DNA of 64,000 bases from Glycocaulis alkaliphilus (GTDB lineage: Bacteria; Pseudomonadota; Alphaproteobacteria; Caulobacterales; Maricaulaceae), in contig NZ_CP018911.1 of NCBI RefSeq assembly GCF_004000605.1, positions 620,001 to 684,000 on the forward strand. The letters are read 5' to 3'. This document shows, in pieces, positions 1-44,849 of the stretch (the first letter of the stretch is position 1; every line of letters starts with the position of its first letter). A model generated the notes under the pieces. The model saw only the letters and a program-made list of their open reading frames with translations. It was not told where the DNA came from and did no database searches. The position numbers and the translations under genes were made by a program.

Positions 1-661
1 TACCCGCGTCACCGGCCGGTCAGGGCTGGAGGCCAGCGCCACCCATGTCGTGCTCACCCCCACCAACGAAGCTGCCTTCCGCATCAATGCGCAGCGCCTT
101 GATGCGCTGCCCGGCAAGCCGGAGCTGATCGAGGGCAAGACATCAGGCCAGTTCGATCAGCGCATCATGCCGACCGATGATCCGCTGATCCTGAAACGCG
201 GTGCGCGTGTGATGCTCTTGCGGAATGATCCCGGCGGGCGCTGGGTCAATGGCTCGCTGGGCGAGGTGGTGGGTTTTGCCGAAGCCGGCGTGATGGTGAA
301 GATCGGCGATGAGGTCCACCGCATCGAGCCGGTGCAGTGGGACCGCCATGCCTATAGCTATGATGCGGCGGCCAAGGCGCTGAAGAAGGAAACCGTCGGC
401 AGCTTTACCCAGATGCCGCTGCGGCTCGCCTGGGCGATGACCATCCACAAGGCACAAGGCCTGACGCTGGACCGTGTCTATCTCGATCTGCCGGGCCGTC
501 TGTTTGCCCACGGGCAAGCCTATGTCGCCCTGTCACGTGCGCGCACGCTGGAAGGGATGGAGCTGTCACGCCCCTTGCGTCCGTCCGACATCATTGTCGA
601 TCAGCGTATATTCGACGTGAAAAGCTATTGCGATCCTGCGCCTGCCCGGCTTGAGGGCTAG
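1..661 (+). CDS. C-terminal part of a UvrD/PIF1-like ATP-dependent helicase (5' truncated by window)
   Basis: The reading frame is open from base 2 with no stop upstream, so the gene starts before the window; about 219 residues are visible. The C-terminal end carries the UvrD_C_2-type helicase signature: [14 protein letters not shown] (motif V-like, with the lysine-alanine-glutamine core) followed by [16 protein letters not shown] (motif VI, where the SRAR arginines contact ATP). An SH3-like insert resembling that of RecD/PIF1 family helicases ([19 protein letters not shown]) precedes it. The likely role is ATP-driven DNA unwinding in repair or recombination. It converges on dut, and the two stop codons overlap by four bases. 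A RecD2- or Dda-like identity cannot be separated from PIF1 without the N-terminus. Confidence 0.8.
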
Positions 662-38470: not shown

Positions 38471-40714
38471 ATGCGCGCTGCTCTTGCTGCCCTCCTGCCG
38501 CTTGCCCTTATTGCCTGCGAGAACGGTGAGGCGCCGCCCGCCGCCCAGACACACCATGCTGCCGGCGAACGCCTGACAATAGAGCGCCTTTACGGCTCGC
38601 CTGATCTCACCGGCCCGACCGCGCGCGTCGTGCGCTTCTCCCCTGATGGCAGCCGTATAACCTTCCTGCGCGCCAAGGAAGATGACCGCACGGTTCAGGA
38701 TCTCTGGGCGATGGATGTGGAGACGGGGCGCTCTTACGTGCTCGTCGATGCGCGCCAGCTGGCGCCTGAAGAGCGCGAACTGACCGAAGCCGAAATCCAG
38801 TTCCGCGAGCGCGCGCGCATTACGGCCACCGGCGTGGTCAGCTATGACTGGGATCAGGCTGGCGAGGCCGTGCTGGTGCCGCTGGATGGCGATGTCTTCT
38901 ACGTCAATGTGGAAACCGGCGAGGCGCGCCGCCTGACGCAAACTGAAGAGTTCGAGACCGACGCCAAGGTCAGCCCGCGCGGCGGCTATGTATCCTTCAT
39001 CCGCGAGCAGAATCTGTGGGTCCATGATCTGGCCACAGGAGAGGAACGCGCTCTTACGACCGAAGGCGGCGGCGCGATCAGCTGGGGCATGGCCGAGTTC
39101 GTCGCCCAGGAAGAGATGAGCCGCTATACCGGCTATTGGTGGTCGCCTGATGACAGCCGGATTGCCGTGGCCCGCGTCGATGAGAACCCGGTCATGGTGG
39201 TCGAGCGCTTCGGCATCTCTGCCGAAGGCGTCTCTGTCTCCGAGCAGCGCTATCCGCGTGCCGGCACGCCCAATGCCCTTGTCACCCTGCATGTGATCGA
39301 TCTTGCCTCTGGCGAGGTGGTCGACATGGATTTGGGTAGCGAAACCGACATCTACCTTAACCGCGTCAACTGGAGCCGGTCGGGCGGGACGCTCTGGGTG
39401 CAGCGCCAGAACCGCGCGCAGACGCAGTGGGATTTGCTGGCCCTCGACCCCACGACCGGGACGGAATACGCGACGCGGCGGATCACGGAGACCGCAGATA
39501 CGTGGATCAATCTCGATCACGATCTCCACCCGCTGAGCGGGGGCGGTCTGATCTATCTGTCCGAACAGTCCGGCTTCCGTCATATCCGGCGGGTTCACGC
39601 TGACGGCTCTGCGCTGGACATCACCTCGGGCAACTGGGTTGTTGACGGCATTGCCGGTATCGACGAGGACAGCGGCACGATCTGGTTTACCGGCTGGATG
39701 GAAACCCCGCTGGAGCGCCATCTTTATTCGGTGAGTTTCGACGGCGCGGTGCCTGAGCGTGTCACGCAAGGCAATGGCCGCTGGAGCGTCTCGGTCGGTT
39801 CGGGCGGGTCAGGCTTTATCGGCAGCTATTCCGATGTCGAGACGCCGCCCCACACCGCGCTCTATGCCATGGATGGGACGCGCATTGCCTGGGTGGAAGA
39901 AAACCCGCTGAACGACGCGCACCCTTACGCGCCCTTCCTGCCCTCTCACGTGACGCCGGAATACGGCACGCTGACGGCTGCAGATGGCGAGACCGATCTG
40001 CACTGGCAGATATACCGTCCGGACCATTGCACCGCATCCACGCCCTGCCCTGCCATCGTGCAGGTCTATGGCGGACCCGGTGTGCAGACCGTACACACGG
40101 GCTGGCAGTCCTTGCGTGACCAGATACTGGTCCAGTCCGGCTATGTCCTCTTCAAGGTTGATAACCGGGGCAGCTCGAACCGGGGCCATGCCTTCGAGGC
40201 CGCGCTGCATCTGCGCATGGGCATTCTCGAGGTCGAGGACCAGCTGGCCGGTCTTGACTGGCTGCAGGCGCGCGATTTCGTTGATGGCGAGCGGGTGGGC
40301 CTGTGGGGCTGGTCTTATGGCGGCTACATGACGCTGATGACCACGCTGCAGGCACCGGGCCGGTTTGCCGCCGGGATTGCCGGTGCGCCGGTGACCGACT
40401 GGTCGCTGTATGACACTCACTATACCGAGCGCTTCATGTCCACCCCGCAGGAGAATGCCGGCGGCTATGAGGCCGGGTCAGTCTTTGCCCATCTCGATGG
40501 CTACGAGACACCGCTTCTCATCATTCACGGCATGGCCGATGACAATGTGACCTTCGACCATTCCACGCGTCTCTTTGCCGAACTGCAGGAGCGCGGCGAG
40601 CTGTTCGAGATGATGACCTATCCCGGCCAACGCCACGGCATCCGCCCGCCGCCCCTGCAGATTCACCTTCTCAAGACACAGATGGCCTTCTTCGACCAGC
40701 ATTTGCGCGAGTAG
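38471..40714 (+). CDS. S9 family (dipeptidyl-peptidase IV-like) lipoprotein peptidase
   Basis: Serine peptidase that removes dipeptides, probably Xaa-Pro, from peptides. The 747-residue protein starts with a lipoprotein signal whose lipobox is LALIAC, so it is anchored in the envelope. The N-terminal half is a DPP-IV-type beta-propeller, with the substrate-amine-binding double Glu in FVAQEEMSR. The C-terminal hydrolase has the nucleophile in GWSYGGYMTLM, Asp in GMADDNVTF and His in GQRHGIRP. The next in-frame upstream codon that could start is beyond a stop, so the ATG at 38471 is well placed despite the hairpin directly before it. Single-gene unit. Confidence 0.93.
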   Translation: MRAALAALLPLALIACENGEAPPAAQTHHAAGERLTIERLYGSPDLTGPTARVVRFSPDGSRITFLRAKEDDRTVQDLWAMDVETGRSYVLVDARQLAPEERELTEAEIQFRERARITATGVVSYDWDQAGEAVLVPLDGDVFYVNVETGEARRLTQTEEFETDAKVSPRGGYVSFIREQNLWVHDLATGEERALTTEGGGAISWGMAEFVAQEEMSRYTGYWWSPDDSRIAVARVDENPVMVVERFGISAEGVSVSEQRYPRAGTPNALVTLHVIDLASGEVVDMDLGSETDIYLNRVNWSRSGGTLWVQRQNRAQTQWDLLALDPTTGTEYATRRITETADTWINLDHDLHPLSGGGLIYLSEQSGFRHIRRVHADGSALDITSGNWVVDGIAGIDEDSGTIWFTGWMETPLERHLYSVSFDGAVPERVTQGNGRWSVSVGSGGSGFIGSYSDVETPPHTALYAMDGTRIAWVEENPLNDAHPYAPFLPSHVTPEYGTLTAADGETDLHWQIYRPDHCTASTPCPAIVQVYGGPGVQTVHTGWQSLRDQILVQSGYVLFKVDNRGSSNRGHAFEAALHLRMGILEVEDQLAGLDWLQARDFVDGERVGLWGWSYGGYMTLMTTLQAPGRFAAGIAGAPVTDWSLYDTHYTERFMSTPQENAGGYEAGSVFAHLDGYETPLLIIHGMADDNVTFDHSTRLFAELQERGELFEMMTYPGQRHGIRPPPLQIHLLKTQMAFFDQHLRE

Positions 40715-40912: not shown

Positions 40913-42151
40913 ATGACGTCTGAAGTGATGATCATGAACCGGCAGGCCGTGGCACTGGCCGCTGACAGCGCGGTCACCTATGGCGGCGGGCCGGAGCCGG
41001 TTGTCACGCTGGAGGCGGAGAAAATCCTGCCGCTCAATGGCTCGGTCGCGCTGATGGTCTATTCGCGCGGCGATGTGCTCGGCCGCTCCTGGTCGCAGAT
41101 CGCCCACGCCTTCCGTCAACAGCATGGCAGTACCGAGTTTGAAAGCGTCGCCGATTGCGCGAAAGCCTTCTTCGCTTTCGTCGATGGTAACCGCAAGCTC
41201 TTCCCTGAGCGCGAGGAGCGCGAGGAGTTCGAGGGGCTGATGCGCGCCGCCTTCCTCACCCTGATGAACCATGCCCGCGCCATGGCGAGCTACCCCGGTG
41301 CCGGGTATGAGGACGACGCGGCGGCCTTCGAGGCCGCGCTGGAGCTTTACCGCAGCCATCTCGCCCATGACGAAAGCGGGCGTCCGCGCGCCGATCTGGA
41401 CGTGTTTGGCCATCTCACGCGCGAGCGCTTTTACGAGCTTTACGGCTCAGTGCTGGACCAGCTGATTGCCGACGCGCTGGGCGCCTTCGGGCAGGAAGAG
41501 GCGATGCGCGCGCGCCTGTTCGACTTTGCCTACATGATCGTCACCAAGCCGGCCTTTCTCGAACCCTATGCGGGTCTGGTGTTCGCCGGGCTGGGGACAG
41601 CGGACATTTTCCCGGTCTACGTCCATCACTATGCCTCCATCCTGGTCGACGGGGTGATGAAGCGCGCCCATGACGAGACGACGGCCGTGGGTGTCGATGA
41701 CGGGCCGAATGCCTTTGTGCGCACATTTGCGCAGGCCGACATGACCCATGCCTTCCTGCGCGGCATCCACCCGCTCATGTTCGACATGATGATTTCGATG
41801 AATCTCATCACCAATGAGGCCGCTGCCGATATGGCCTTGCGTGAGGCCGGGCTGGACGCGAAAGCGGCCGGCGAGGTGATGGAGCGCATCGGGCAGGGCG
41901 CCCTGCCTGCCCTGACGGGCCATTTCATCAAGGCGTCCCATCAGGTCAGCCAGGAAGAGTTTATCAACCCGTTCATCCAGGTGGTGTCGGCCTCCGGCAA
42001 GCGCCAGATCGCCGAAACCTCCAAGGCGCTGGTGGAGCTCAACATCCTCAAAAGCAGCCTGCATCAGACCCAGACCGGGGTCGGCGGGGATGTGGATGTG
42101 GTGATGATCTCGCAAACGGGCGGCGTGGAATGGTATGCTCGCAAGGCCTGA
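40913..42151 (+). CDS. putative proteasome-like Ntn-hydrolase (no recognised family name)
   Basis: A 412-residue protein I cannot name. Removing the initiator Met would expose Thr as residue 1; counting from it, the sequence TSEVMIMNRQ then AVALAADSAVT puts Asp at 17, Val at 20 and Thr at 21, matching the Thr1/Asp17/VxT21 pattern of 20S proteasome beta and HslV subunits. Lys-Ile follows at 36-37 (Lys33 in the family, three residues later here), and ALMVYSRGD resembles the next strand and Gly-Asp turn. No propeptide is present. The remaining 330 residues are longer than a proteasome subunit, helical in character, and unlike anything I recognise. A 166-residue unknown gene follows 26 bases later. 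The catalytic role is inference. Confidence 0.6.
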   Translation: MTSEVMIMNRQAVALAADSAVTYGGGPEPVVTLEAEKILPLNGSVALMVYSRGDVLGRSWSQIAHAFRQQHGSTEFESVADCAKAFFAFVDGNRKLFPEREEREEFEGLMRAAFLTLMNHARAMASYPGAGYEDDAAAFEAALELYRSHLAHDESGRPRADLDVFGHLTRERFYELYGSVLDQLIADALGAFGQEEAMRARLFDFAYMIVTKPAFLEPYAGLVFAGLGTADIFPVYVHHYASILVDGVMKRAHDETTAVGVDDGPNAFVRTFAQADMTHAFLRGIHPLMFDMMISMNLITNEAAADMALREAGLDAKAAGEVMERIGQGALPALTGHFIKASHQVSQEEFINPFIQVVSASGKRQIAETSKALVELNILKSSLHQTQTGVGGDVDVVMISQTGGVEWYARKA

Positions 42152-42177: not shown

Positions 42178-42678
42178 ATGAGCAGTGACATGAACGATAC
42201 CCCGTCCCGGCTTGATCTGGACCGCGCCCGCGCCGCCCTGGCCAAGGTGCGCGATGAGAGCGCCATTGCCGTGCGTGCCCCGCGCCCGGCCGATCTGTCG
42301 CGCCTGCGCGAGGAGGCTGATCGCCGCCACCGCATCGAAACGCGTGCCGGTGCCTTCCGCATGGAATTGCGCAGCCAGCTGGGCCTTGCCGACACGCAAG
42401 GGCCCTACTCGCCCTTGCCGTTGAATACATCGGGCGTGGTGGGCCATGCCTTGTGCGACGCTGACATCTGCATGCCCGGCGCGCCGCTGGCCAATGCGCC
42501 CGAACGCCCAAAGGCTCAGCCTGCCCCGTCGATTGCCGGCGAACGGCCCGATGCGGGCTTTGCCGGCGAGGCGCAGGCCGTGTCGCCCGTTGAGCCGGAG
42601 ACGGAGGCGGATTGGGCAGACGGCATCCCCGAACCAGAGGCACCGCGCAAGCGCAAGAAATTCCTGGGACTGTTTTAG
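42178..42678 (+). CDS. hypothetical protein downstream of the Ntn-hydrolase-like gene
   Basis: A 166-residue unrecognised protein. The N-terminal 70 residues are highly charged and helical (RLDLDRARAALAKVRDE, SRLREEADRRHRIETRAG), the middle is Pro/Ala-rich and probably disordered, and the end is basic (PRKRKKFLGLF). No signal peptide or membrane segment. GGAGCTTGATCG precedes the ATG. It is 26 bases after the putative Ntn-hydrolase in the same direction, so the two are likely co-transcribed and may work together. A family C repeat follows. Confidence 0.6.
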   Translation: MSSDMNDTPSRLDLDRARAALAKVRDESAIAVRAPRPADLSRLREEADRRHRIETRAGAFRMELRSQLGLADTQGPYSPLPLNTSGVVGHALCDADICMPGAPLANAPERPKAQPAPSIAGERPDAGFAGEAQAVSPVEPETEADWADGIPEPEAPRKRKKFLGLF

Positions 42679-42794: not shown

Positions 42795-43295
42795 TTACGC
42801 CGTCAGCAGTATCTTGCAGATCGCTTCAAGCCCGTCTTTGTCCTCCGGGCCGAAGGCAGCAAGGCTTTCTGAATCCACGTCCAGCACCGCGGCCAGAGAG
42901 CCATCGGGGCGAAACACCGGCACGACAATTTCCGAGTTCGACCGGCTGTCGCAGGCGATATGGCCGGGGAAGGCATGCACGTCAGGGACAAGCTGGGTCT
43001 CGCCGCTGGCCGCTGCCGCGCCGCACACCCCCTTGCCGAACGGGATGCGCAAACATCCCAGCGTGCCCTGATAGGGGCCGACCACCAGCTCACGGGGTTT
43101 AAGCGGATCAACCACATAAAACCCCGTCCAGAAAAAGCGCGGCGCGAAATTCTGCGCGAGTACGCAGGCCGCCGTGGCAAAGCGCGCCGTCTCGCTGGTC
43201 TCGCCAGCCACAATCGCCGCGATTTCCTCGGCCACGCGGGCATAGGCCTGTTCGAGTGTTTCGCCTGCGGGCGCTTTTGAGAGGGCTTCGGCCAT
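42795..43295 (-). CDS. msrC: GAF-domain free methionine-(R)-sulfoxide reductase
   Basis: Reduces free Met-R-sulfoxide, an oxidative-stress repair enzyme. The 166-residue GAF protein carries the fRMsr pattern: FFWTGFYVVDP, LVVGPYQGTLGCLRIPFGKGVCG (two Cys, core GKGVCG), VPDVHAFPGHIACDS (third Cys) and VLDVDS. The three Cys and the acidic residues match the catalytic set of the E. coli YebR type. The start at 43295 has GGAG five bases upstream; frames reading further back lack support. It converges with the preceding plus-strand gene across a family C repeat and diverges from the alkaline phosphatase gene. Confidence 0.9.
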   Translation of the reverse strand: MAEALSKAPAGETLEQAYARVAEEIAAIVAGETSETARFATAACVLAQNFAPRFFWTGFYVVDPLKPRELVVGPYQGTLGCLRIPFGKGVCGAAAASGETQLVPDVHAFPGHIACDSRSNSEIVVPVFRPDGSLAAVLDVDSESLAAFGPEDKDGLEAICKILLTA

Positions 43296-43433
43296 GAGTG
43301 CTCCTTCGGGCATCGGCGGCAGGTGTGCTATCACACTTAGGCGCACCCTGGCTGCGCCGCCAGTATCCTTTCATGCCCCTGTCACACCGGGCTGCTACCT
43401 CTGACAATCTCTCAGCCACTGCTTGAAAGAAGA

Positions 43434-44849
43434 ATGATGACCCGTTTTCTCCGTTTTACCGCGATCAGCTTTGTTGCCCTTGGCCTGGCCTCTGCAGCCC
43501 ACGCACAGGAAGCGCGCAATGTGATCCTGATGATCAGCGACGGGGCGGGCATGACGACCTGGCAGGCGGCCAGCCATTACCGGCATGGCGAGCTGGGCGG
43601 TGAGGTCTATGACGGGTTCGATGTTCACGTCTTCATGTCGACCTATTCTCAAGGCCGCGAAGGCCGTGAAGCAGGCAGCTATGAAGCTGCGCCGGCATGG
43701 GACGGCACGCCCGCCGGTGATGTGTTCGAGACCCGCGGAGGCAGCTATCCGCAGGGCTTTGAAGGCTACCGTTATCTGCGCACCAACCCTACCGACAGCG
43801 CGGCGGCGGGTACGGCGCTGGCCAGCGGTGTGAAGGTGCATAACGGCGCGCTCAATATCGCGCCGGACGGCACCAGGCTCGCCCATATCGGTCAGACGCT
43901 GGCCGCCAATGGCGGCGTGTTCGGCTCCATTTCGGACGTGTACTGGAGCCATGCCACCCCGGCGGCGTTCCTCGCGCACAACATTTCGCGCCAGAACTAT
44001 GAAGAGATTGCCCGCCAGATCGTGACCGACAGGGCCGCCACCGTGGTGATGGGTGCAGGCCATCCCTATTTCGACGATAACGGGCTTCCGCGCAGCGGCG
44101 AGGATGTGGATTACAGCTATGTCGGCGGGGCCGATACCTGGCAGGCGCTCAGCGCCGGTGAGGCGGGCTGGACCTTGATCGATACGCTGGAGGGCTTTGC
44201 GGCGCTGGCGTCCGGTGAACAGGAAGCCGCCGCTGGCGATCGTATAATCGGCACGGTTCCGGTGGCGGCAACCATCCGCTTCGGACGTGACGGCGAGGGC
44301 ATGAATGACCCACTCATCCCGGCCGTGCCGGACCTTGCCACAATGAGCACCGGCGCGCTCAACGTGCTCAACGCGCAAGACGCACCCTTCTTCCTGATGA
44401 TCGAAGGCGGCGCGGTGGACTGGGCGGCCCATTCCAACAATCTGCCGCGCATCATTGAGGAGCAGGTGGCTTTCAATCTGGCCGTGGAGGCCGTGGTGGA
44501 CTGGGTCGAGACGCACTCCTCCTGGGAGGAGACGCTGATCGTTATCACCACCGATCACGGCAATGGCCTTCTGCTCGGCCCGGACTCGCTGGATGAGGCC
44601 TTCCAGAATGTCATCGGTCAGGGTGCAGGTATGCTGCCGCTGGCGCGCTGGCACACCGATAATCACACCAACGAGCTGGTGCCGCTCTGGGCGCATGGCG
44701 CCGGCGCTGACCGGATCAGGGCCAAGGCCACGCAGCGCGATGACGGGCTGGCGGCTTGGGGCATCACGCCGGAGAACCGCATCTATCTGGATAACACCGC
44801 GCTGAACCGGGCCATGCACGATGCGATGGGGCTGGAGTTTGCGAACTAG
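43434..44849 (+). CDS. secreted alkaline phosphatase
   Basis: Metal-dependent phosphomonoesterase of the PhoA superfamily. The 471-residue precursor has a signal peptide (FTAISFVALGLASAAHAQ). The metal-1 Asp is in ILMISDGAG (Asp36), the nucleophile Ser122 in PTDSAAAGTALASG, and further ligands in FLMIEGGAVDWAAHSNN, VITTDHGNG and WHTDNHTNELVPLWAHG. The set of Asp/His/Ser residues is complete. It gives the cell phosphate from organic esters in the periplasm. A PHO box was not recognised upstream. It ends 57 bases before tRNA-Gly. Confidence 0.93.
   Translation: MMTRFLRFTAISFVALGLASAAHAQEARNVILMISDGAGMTTWQAASHYRHGELGGEVYDGFDVHVFMSTYSQGREGREAGSYEAAPAWDGTPAGDVFETRGGSYPQGFEGYRYLRTNPTDSAAAGTALASGVKVHNGALNIAPDGTRLAHIGQTLAANGGVFGSISDVYWSHATPAAFLAHNISRQNYEEIARQIVTDRAATVVMGAGHPYFDDNGLPRSGEDVDYSYVGGADTWQALSAGEAGWTLIDTLEGFAALASGEQEAAAGDRIIGTVPVAATIRFGRDGEGMNDPLIPAVPDLATMSTGALNVLNAQDAPFFLMIEGGAVDWAAHSNNLPRIIEEQVAFNLAVEAVVDWVETHSSWEETLIVITTDHGNGLLLGPDSLDEAFQNVIGQGAGMLPLARWHTDNHTNELVPLWAHGAGADRIRAKATQRDDGLAAWGITPENRIYLDNTALNRAMHDAMGLEFAN

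Follow-up and report, generated by a model that had tools for sequence, protein, structure and literature searches.

The window analysed here is a stretch of 64,000 nucleotides from the genome of Glycocaulis alkaliphilus, a single contig of 3.02 Mb. On its forward strand lies a gene (40913..42151) that opens with an ATG at 40913, ends with a stop at 42151 and encodes 412 amino acids. The product, called the enzyme below, is predicted to be a threonine Ntn-hydrolase of proteasome fold, PMI-4-like (phrog_5990) and without a propeptide. A second gene on the same strand (42178..42678) encodes a small partner protein of 166 aa and follows the enzyme in all 15 close loci; the first-pass annotation of this DNA had correctly placed this co-directional reading frame 26 bases after the enzyme. 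By enzyme protein, the nearest named relative is Glycocaulis albus (96% identity). The gene upstream of the pair (38471-40714) encodes what we take to be an S9 dipeptidyl peptidase, and the genes downstream presumably encode a GAF-type methionine sulfoxide reductase (42795-43346) and an alkaline phosphatase (43434-44849). The S9-type neighbour recurs in 10 of the 15 close loci and the reductase-type neighbour in 9, some of the loci being short. No sigma-70-like promoter emerged from the promoter scan, and the single terminator-like site that the terminator scan returned is on the opposite strand and within chance. The putative status of the two genes as an operon is based on their spacing and conservation.

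A proteasome-type N-terminal-threonine hydrolase had been proposed from Thr1, Asp17, Val20 and Thr21 (counted without the initiator Met) and from a Lys-Ile pair close to Lys33. These residues are where they were said to be, the Lys-Ile pair being residues 36-37 without Met and equivalent to Lys33. Numbered with Met as 1, the predicted nucleophile is Thr2 (codon 40916..40918, + strand; Thr1 once Met is removed), accompanied by Asp18 (40964..40966, +; the Asp17 equivalent) and Lys37 (41021..41023, +; the Lys33 equivalent). Across 66 distinct aligned proteins Asp18 and Lys37 never vary, and Thr2 is found in 65, the remaining row having a gap; Thr2 also occupies its column in 39/39 rows of the enzyme alignment. 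The gap belongs to locus L182, the frame of which reads I-T-A-E, so that Thr is present there also. The enzyme gene of this locus (L182:1498) apparently begins on the Ile codon preceding Thr, an unusual start. Because the pattern scan for the 15 close loci used one pattern spanning Thr2, a recount was made without the window and the three pattern-scan rows, giving Thr2 in 61 of 62 proteins (one gap) and Asp18 and Lys37 in 62 of 62; one viral-contig scan used an AADSA-type string. The enzyme finder behind the locus and pairing counts demands T2 and DS and thus cannot test their conservation, and the 39-row and 66-protein counts were made without it. Loss of Thr2 or Asp18 in homologues, named earlier as a refutation, was not seen across the 66 proteins, and at the level of sequence the Thr/Asp/Lys register is beyond chance.

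The absence of a propeptide, also claimed at first, is borne out by all 39 rows of the enzyme alignment, which open with Met-Thr; a few relatives outside this alignment start with GTG, TTG or an Ile codon. The supposed Gly-Asp turn is not conserved, with G in 18/39 and D in 18/39 rows at its two columns. At the oxyanion Gly47 site (14 residues after the catalytic Lys, by sequence position) the 66 proteins have Asn in 28 cases, Ser in 20 and Gly in 13. Judged by eye, counterparts of proteasome Ser129, Asp166 and Ser169 are not evident in the enzyme.

Direct sequence evidence points weakly to kinship with the proteasome. The enzyme has no match in Pfam up to E 10 and none in NCBIfam, and PF00227 (Pfam Proteasome) finds 5 of the 39 enzyme relatives (best 2.4e-4), the window protein not being detected. 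A profile search of the PDB returned archaeal beta subunits at E 0.19-0.21 amid chance matches, with the GGxxDVAVI strand aligned; the C-terminal GG-x-[VI]-D-V strand region of the enzyme (residues 391-399, 42083..42109, +) is common to archaeal proteasome beta. In a profile comparison with the HslV of its own genome, residues 3-44 of the enzyme were aligned (E 0.0058), Asp18 pairing with an Asp and Lys37 with a Lys so that the stretch from Asp17 to Lys33 is in register, and lengthening the alignment by one residue puts Thr2 on an HslV Thr. This HslV (an NCBIfam name) is a separate gene and the genome's sole PF00227 match; an alpha/beta pair recognised by PF00227, as in the actinobacterial 20S proteasome, was not found there.

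The predicted structure is more informative. An AlphaFold2 model, built with a profile of 39 relatives that includes the window protein, has a mean pLDDT of 88.5 and a pTM of 0.86. Compared by VIA-align it is closest to 20S beta subunits (best Z 15.3, rmsd 3.8, 185 residues, model 2..412), chain residue 1 of the 20S beta subunit falling on model residue 2. Anbu (5lox) is second with Z 15.0, which is a tie; Foldseek alone gives a best E of 2.2e-4. The comparison with proteasome-type folds that had been suggested thus finds a proteasome beta fold in the model, and the Ntn architecture is predicted to be present rather than missing. Together with the kept catalytic residues, the predicted fold bears out the proposal of a proteasome-type N-terminal-threonine hydrolase. 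In the model, the enzyme and 20S beta have the fold over the whole chain in common, with the N-terminal Thr in the same place; the enzyme differs by two long insertions and the lack of a propeptide. Similarly, Anbu is alike in fold, whereas the enzyme has long insertions, and no direct sequence match between the two is reported.

The view that some 330 residues are unlike the end of a proteasome fold has to be given up, since the predicted fold reaches residue 412, its last two strands completing it, and the added length consists of two helical insertions. The first (approximately residues 92-218, 41186..41566, +) follows H1/H2 and contains model helices at 99-126, 135-151, 170-194 and 196-211. 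The second (approximately residues 312-362, 41846..41998, +) lies between H3 and H4, with model helices at 316-327 and 330-360. The limits of both are our own. An insertion between S3 and S4, the mark of PMI-5, PMI-6 and connectase, was not seen, the model having no additional element ahead of residue 52.

These features place the enzyme in a family that is already catalogued, contrary to its first description as of unknown family: phrog_5990 of PHROGs matches it over its full length (residues 1-411, E 1.6e-48), and its architecture is that of PMI-3/PMI-4. Fuchs, Alva and Lupas (2021) described 22 new proteasome homologs (PMC8665760); with Anbu and BPH also listed there, it no longer holds that HslV is the only such peptidase of bacteria outside Actinobacteria, and the G. 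alkaliphilus genome has both HslV and the PMI-4-like enzyme. According to the sections of PMC8665760 used here, insertions both after H1/H2 and between H3/H4 occur in PMI-3 and PMI-4 only, and Table 1 gives phages as a source of PMI-4 and not of PMI-3. PMI-4 is the likely assignment, inferred from architecture (both insertions) and distribution (occurrence in phages). Like PMI-4, the enzyme has a proteasome core, Thr1/Asp17/Lys33, no propeptide and both insertions. PMI-4 is among the larger of the new families (501 sequences at 90% identity, Table 1), with a range that covers Proteobacteria, Firmicutes, Bacteroidetes, others and phages. The same sections report neither a co-occurring AAA+ interactor nor a telling gene context for the new homologs and, as far as found, their description of PMI-4 does not include a downstream partner. 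For phrog_5990 no function is annotated; the window enzyme differs from most of its phage members examined in being chromosomal and in lacking their RKxYF extension. In the open-access literature searched, no bench work on this enzyme family came up.

The enzyme is unevenly distributed. It is found in 34 of 119 related genomes, namely in 20/71 of family f1, 12/12 of family f5 and two of family f2. The divergent f2 enzymes, in G147 (two copies, L025 and L026) and G256 (L024), cluster apart from the others in the tree. In the same tree f1 and f5 are on one side of a branch (support 51/94), and with many long branches and no root it neither shows nor rejects a common origin of the partner-bearing f1 and f5 enzymes. 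In wider searches, a phage profile detected the enzyme in 10 of the 398 genomes that represent the phylum, and our own profile (E 0.001) did so in 18 of 385 alphaproteobacterial genomes, two of them marginal.

Relatives are also found in phages, satellite phages and plasmids. Among 50,697 phage records 12 contain the enzyme with the window protein as query and 13 with a phage member; for 72,556 plasmids the number is 4, or 10 with a plasmid member as query. Two of the plasmid relatives (L177, L179) are broken by stops or frameshifts. A first scan of viral contigs with a single enzyme protein as query gave no relative, and two alignment scans gave 156 and 187, from which the best 80 of 156 and the best 80 of 187 were analysed. 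Among seven annotated records from phages or satellites, three have the enzyme near lysis genes and three have it as the final or penultimate gene; it is among structural genes in a Porphyromonas prophage and inside the record in one satellite. A partial match to a phage-member gene occurs on the chromosome in 22 of 5,426 E. coli genomes, the ten matches listed covering 14-18% of that gene. On the rhizobial plasmids L034, L176, L177 and L178 the relative is within a few kb of multiubiquitin-domain and ThiF-family genes, in two arrangements, and in L176-L178 both a DUF6527 or unnamed gene and a ClpP-like subunit come next. A general link to ubiquitin was considered and rejected: of 385 alphaproteobacterial genomes, 18 have the enzyme, 11 have Multi_ubiq and one (G502) has both, on different contigs, where about 0.5 co-occurrences are expected by chance.

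The partner is a protein with little confident structure. Its model (pLDDT 62.6, pTM 0.25) contains a helix at approximately residues 37-67 and is otherwise mostly without confident structure. Two short elements are conserved in an alignment that combines the window's own partner with those of 14 close loci; the fifteenth, L011, which ends in FFWLF, was left out. One is the motif L-C-D-A-D-x-C-x-P (residues 92-100, 42451..42477, +), with C93, D94, A95, C98 and P100 invariant in the 15 rows; the other is the C-terminal tail KRKKFLGLF-COOH (42649..42675, +). Further invariant positions include R33, P35, R36, P37, D39, L40, K161, G164 and F166. The C-D-A-D-x-C-x-P element of the f1 partners, which is a possible metal or redox site, is not seen in f5 partners.

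A profile of the partner matches 16 of the 119 genomes, all within the 34 that have the enzyme. Fifteen of these matches are in f1 and adjoin the enzyme, and the sixteenth is marginal, lies elsewhere and contains six stops. The five f1 genomes with enzyme and without partner match all belong to genus g220, where the three loci examined have a 99-aa ORF without the tail behind the enzyme. In f5, all 12 enzymes (12 sampled genomes) are followed by a gene of 139-157 aa that has the tail (ending, e.g., in RKKFLGIF or KKKRFGIF) and a different body; by hhalign, the f1 and f5 partners are alike in the last 13 columns only (E 2.4e-6). Thus, the claim of a new branch with its own partner stands as regards the conserved gene behind the enzyme and falls, given phrog_5990 and the PMI-3/PMI-4 architecture, as regards the new branch.

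Small genes behind the enzyme are also common in phages. Under a strict rule (ATG, 30-75 aa, start -20 to +30 from the enzyme stop), 57 of 64 distinct enzymes in phage loci are directly before a small ORF. The seven exceptions are L032 (record ends), L088 (broken), L075 and L096 (GTG starts), L107 (TTG), and L102 and L108 (30 aa further on). With one common filter, which is stricter on genes than that of the preceding count, a small ORF lies behind 53 of 55 enzymes versus 23 of 128 other ORFs of at least 300 aa in the same loci; these background ORFs, like the 236 used below, were called mechanically, and false ones may be among them. The enzymes are related and not independent, so that p-values of the pairing overstate it. 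By these rules no partner is found at L016, L019, L022, L032 (record ends), L034 and L179 (broken gene).

The rule that an ORF follows the enzyme was set before new searches and held in both new enzymes that these produced, L212 and L213. A second viral scan, made after the rule was set and outside the planned searches, gave 13 new distinct enzymes, 12 with a downstream ORF and 9 by the strict small-ORF rule, L259 (contig edge) being skipped. Here the gene behind L260 is of a different kind and encodes 347 aa, L261 has no ORF behind it, and L216 and L277 have just short ones, at +56 and +49; L271 and L285 share a partner. The small downstream proteins fall into several dissimilar sets, and some are annotated as CDSs in the records. 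When ten partners of phage or plasmid type were compared with PHROGs, one had its own family (phrog_26281, E 3.2e-41, function not annotated) and the other nine gave weak matches or none; Pfam gave nothing credible for six partners, and one phage partner had no match among plasmids. These ORFs are coding, as changes are mostly at codon position 3: differences at positions 1/2/3 number 194/165/427 in the f1 partners, 126/100/225 in the f5 partners and 148/106/267 in 12 disjoint pairs of phage and plasmid type.

Partner size and the C-terminus of the enzyme vary together. In all 66 enzymes with a C-terminal extension of the form [KR][KR][HLKF][YF]F the downstream ORF is 30-72 aa. Most enzymes without it have partners of 99-216 aa, namely those of f1 (16), f5 (12), L143, L181, L183, L185, L187, L189 and L190; the window enzyme is of this second type. 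L088 and L177 (broken enzyme genes) and L020 (a duplicate of L117) are omitted from this set. Four loci outside the set agree with a split at about 100 aa: L182 and L213 have the extension and partners of 78 and 58 aa, while L188 and L212 lack it and have partners of at least 133 aa (running off the contig) and 179 aa. The strict pattern is failed by L033, L036, L101, L104 and L112, in which RK[EQY]YF is present and partners are 54-61 aa, and behind the enzyme of L186 there is only a doubtful 31-aa ORF.

On balance it is probable that the two genes form a module, in which a threonine Ntn-hydrolase is targeted, regulated or fed by a small protein. Removal of Met by methionine aminopeptidase would leave Thr1 at the N-terminus of the enzyme, and Thr1, Asp17 and Lys36 would form the active site of an enzyme with a proteasome beta core, for which we infer peptidase (or transpeptidase) activity. 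The enzyme would be the catalytic half of the module and the downstream protein the other half, mostly disordered, with short conserved elements, here the basic-aromatic tail KRKKFLG[LI]F. The partner probably binds the enzyme, and in this way would bring it to its substrate or site or switch it on or off. Across the family, the extension of the enzyme (RKxYF...) and the size of the partner trade off as if sharing one job. That different bodies share a tail, and that the extension trades off against partner size, favours a binding element over simple adjacency. Read from sequence, the enzyme is most likely an active threonine hydrolase directed by its partner.

In the window's genome a degenerate tail pattern has a single occurrence, at the partner gene. 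As a DNA pattern it occurs in 28 places of the 119 genomes, 19 of them at partner genes (14 in f1, 5 in f5) and nine elsewhere. As a mark of the enzyme alone the tail had to be rejected, since two of the nine other places encode KKFLGIF or QKFLGLF followed by a stop and the enzyme was not found there. One of these products (L164:2981-4714), presumably an AMP-binding acyl-CoA ligase, ends in EKRKKFLGIF, and the other, encoded by a small ORF (L165:1677-2096) and in our judgement a prophage lipoprotein, ends in QKFLGLF; the enzyme was detected in neither genome.

The tail, which we assume to resemble that of MinD, might instead tether the partner, and hence the enzyme, to the inner membrane. The tail of the acyl-CoA-ligase-like protein is the same, and the tails of several long partners of other alphaproteobacteria differ in letters and keep their basic and F/W/L character. 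A rule for basic-aromatic tails is met by 15/16 partners of f1, 12/12 of f5 and 4/6 others, compared with 11 of 236 background ORFs. However, this rule was devised after the tails had been seen, and in a test laid down beforehand the sole scorable new long partner, L212, fails it (1/2 if the earlier-found L190, a same-genus relative of L189, is added), so that we lean against it, as worded, as a general property. The tail letters in f1 and f5 are also stricter than a membrane anchor needs. We consider a membrane tether somewhat unlikely.

The partner might also be a dedicated substrate, cleaved by the enzyme at one defined position or joined by it to a second protein, in the manner of connectase and its target. 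A protein of this kind could well have the partner's scarcity of confident structure, its fixed motifs and its conserved terminus, and connectase, a distant member of the proteasome family, is a specific ligase (PMC8665760, in the sections used here). The two-helix S3/S4 insertion over the active site of connectase is, however, absent from the enzyme model, and partner bodies that vary by lineage fit a binder at least as well. A substrate role is unlikely.

An explanation without a module is that the enzyme is an ordinary PMI-4 and has no functional tie to the gene downstream, which is its neighbour only. Phage genomes are densely packed, so that a downstream gene by itself proves little; some relatives have no partner, and g220 has its 99-aa ORF lacking the tail. 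Against this, the pairing is kept in two families whose partners have different bodies, as well as in the majority of the phage loci examined, and all 16 partner-profile matches are in enzyme-bearing genomes, which makes mere adjacency distinctly improbable. Very improbable is a protease and inhibitor pair, toxin-antitoxin-like, that mobile elements carry and this clade has domesticated: relatives in phages, satellite phages and plasmids and a small, fast-changing downstream gene would fit it, whereas the enzyme is in 12/12 f5 and 20/71 f1 genomes and precedes its partner, and neither protein has a match up to E 10 in PADLOC-DB, which covers described systems only.

We therefore retain the hydrolase directed by its partner as the preferred reading. 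The small-partner module appears to be new, not having been found in print in the open-access literature and the examined sections of PMC8665760, and it belongs to an enzyme family already catalogued. More tentatively, and with rather more doubt than confidence, PMI-type homologs of phages, satellites, plasmids and alphaproteobacterial chromosomes might all supply the catalysis in a single two-gene system of wide occurrence. In this system unrelated small disordered partners with a short recognition element would steer or restrain a threonine protease without an ATPase, and the enzyme extension and the partner would be interchangeable docking halves.

The conserved partner offers a concrete handle on the function of one of the larger proteasome-like families described in 2021. 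If the partner replaces an unfoldase as the control element, it would add a second mode of operation for proteasome-type active sites.
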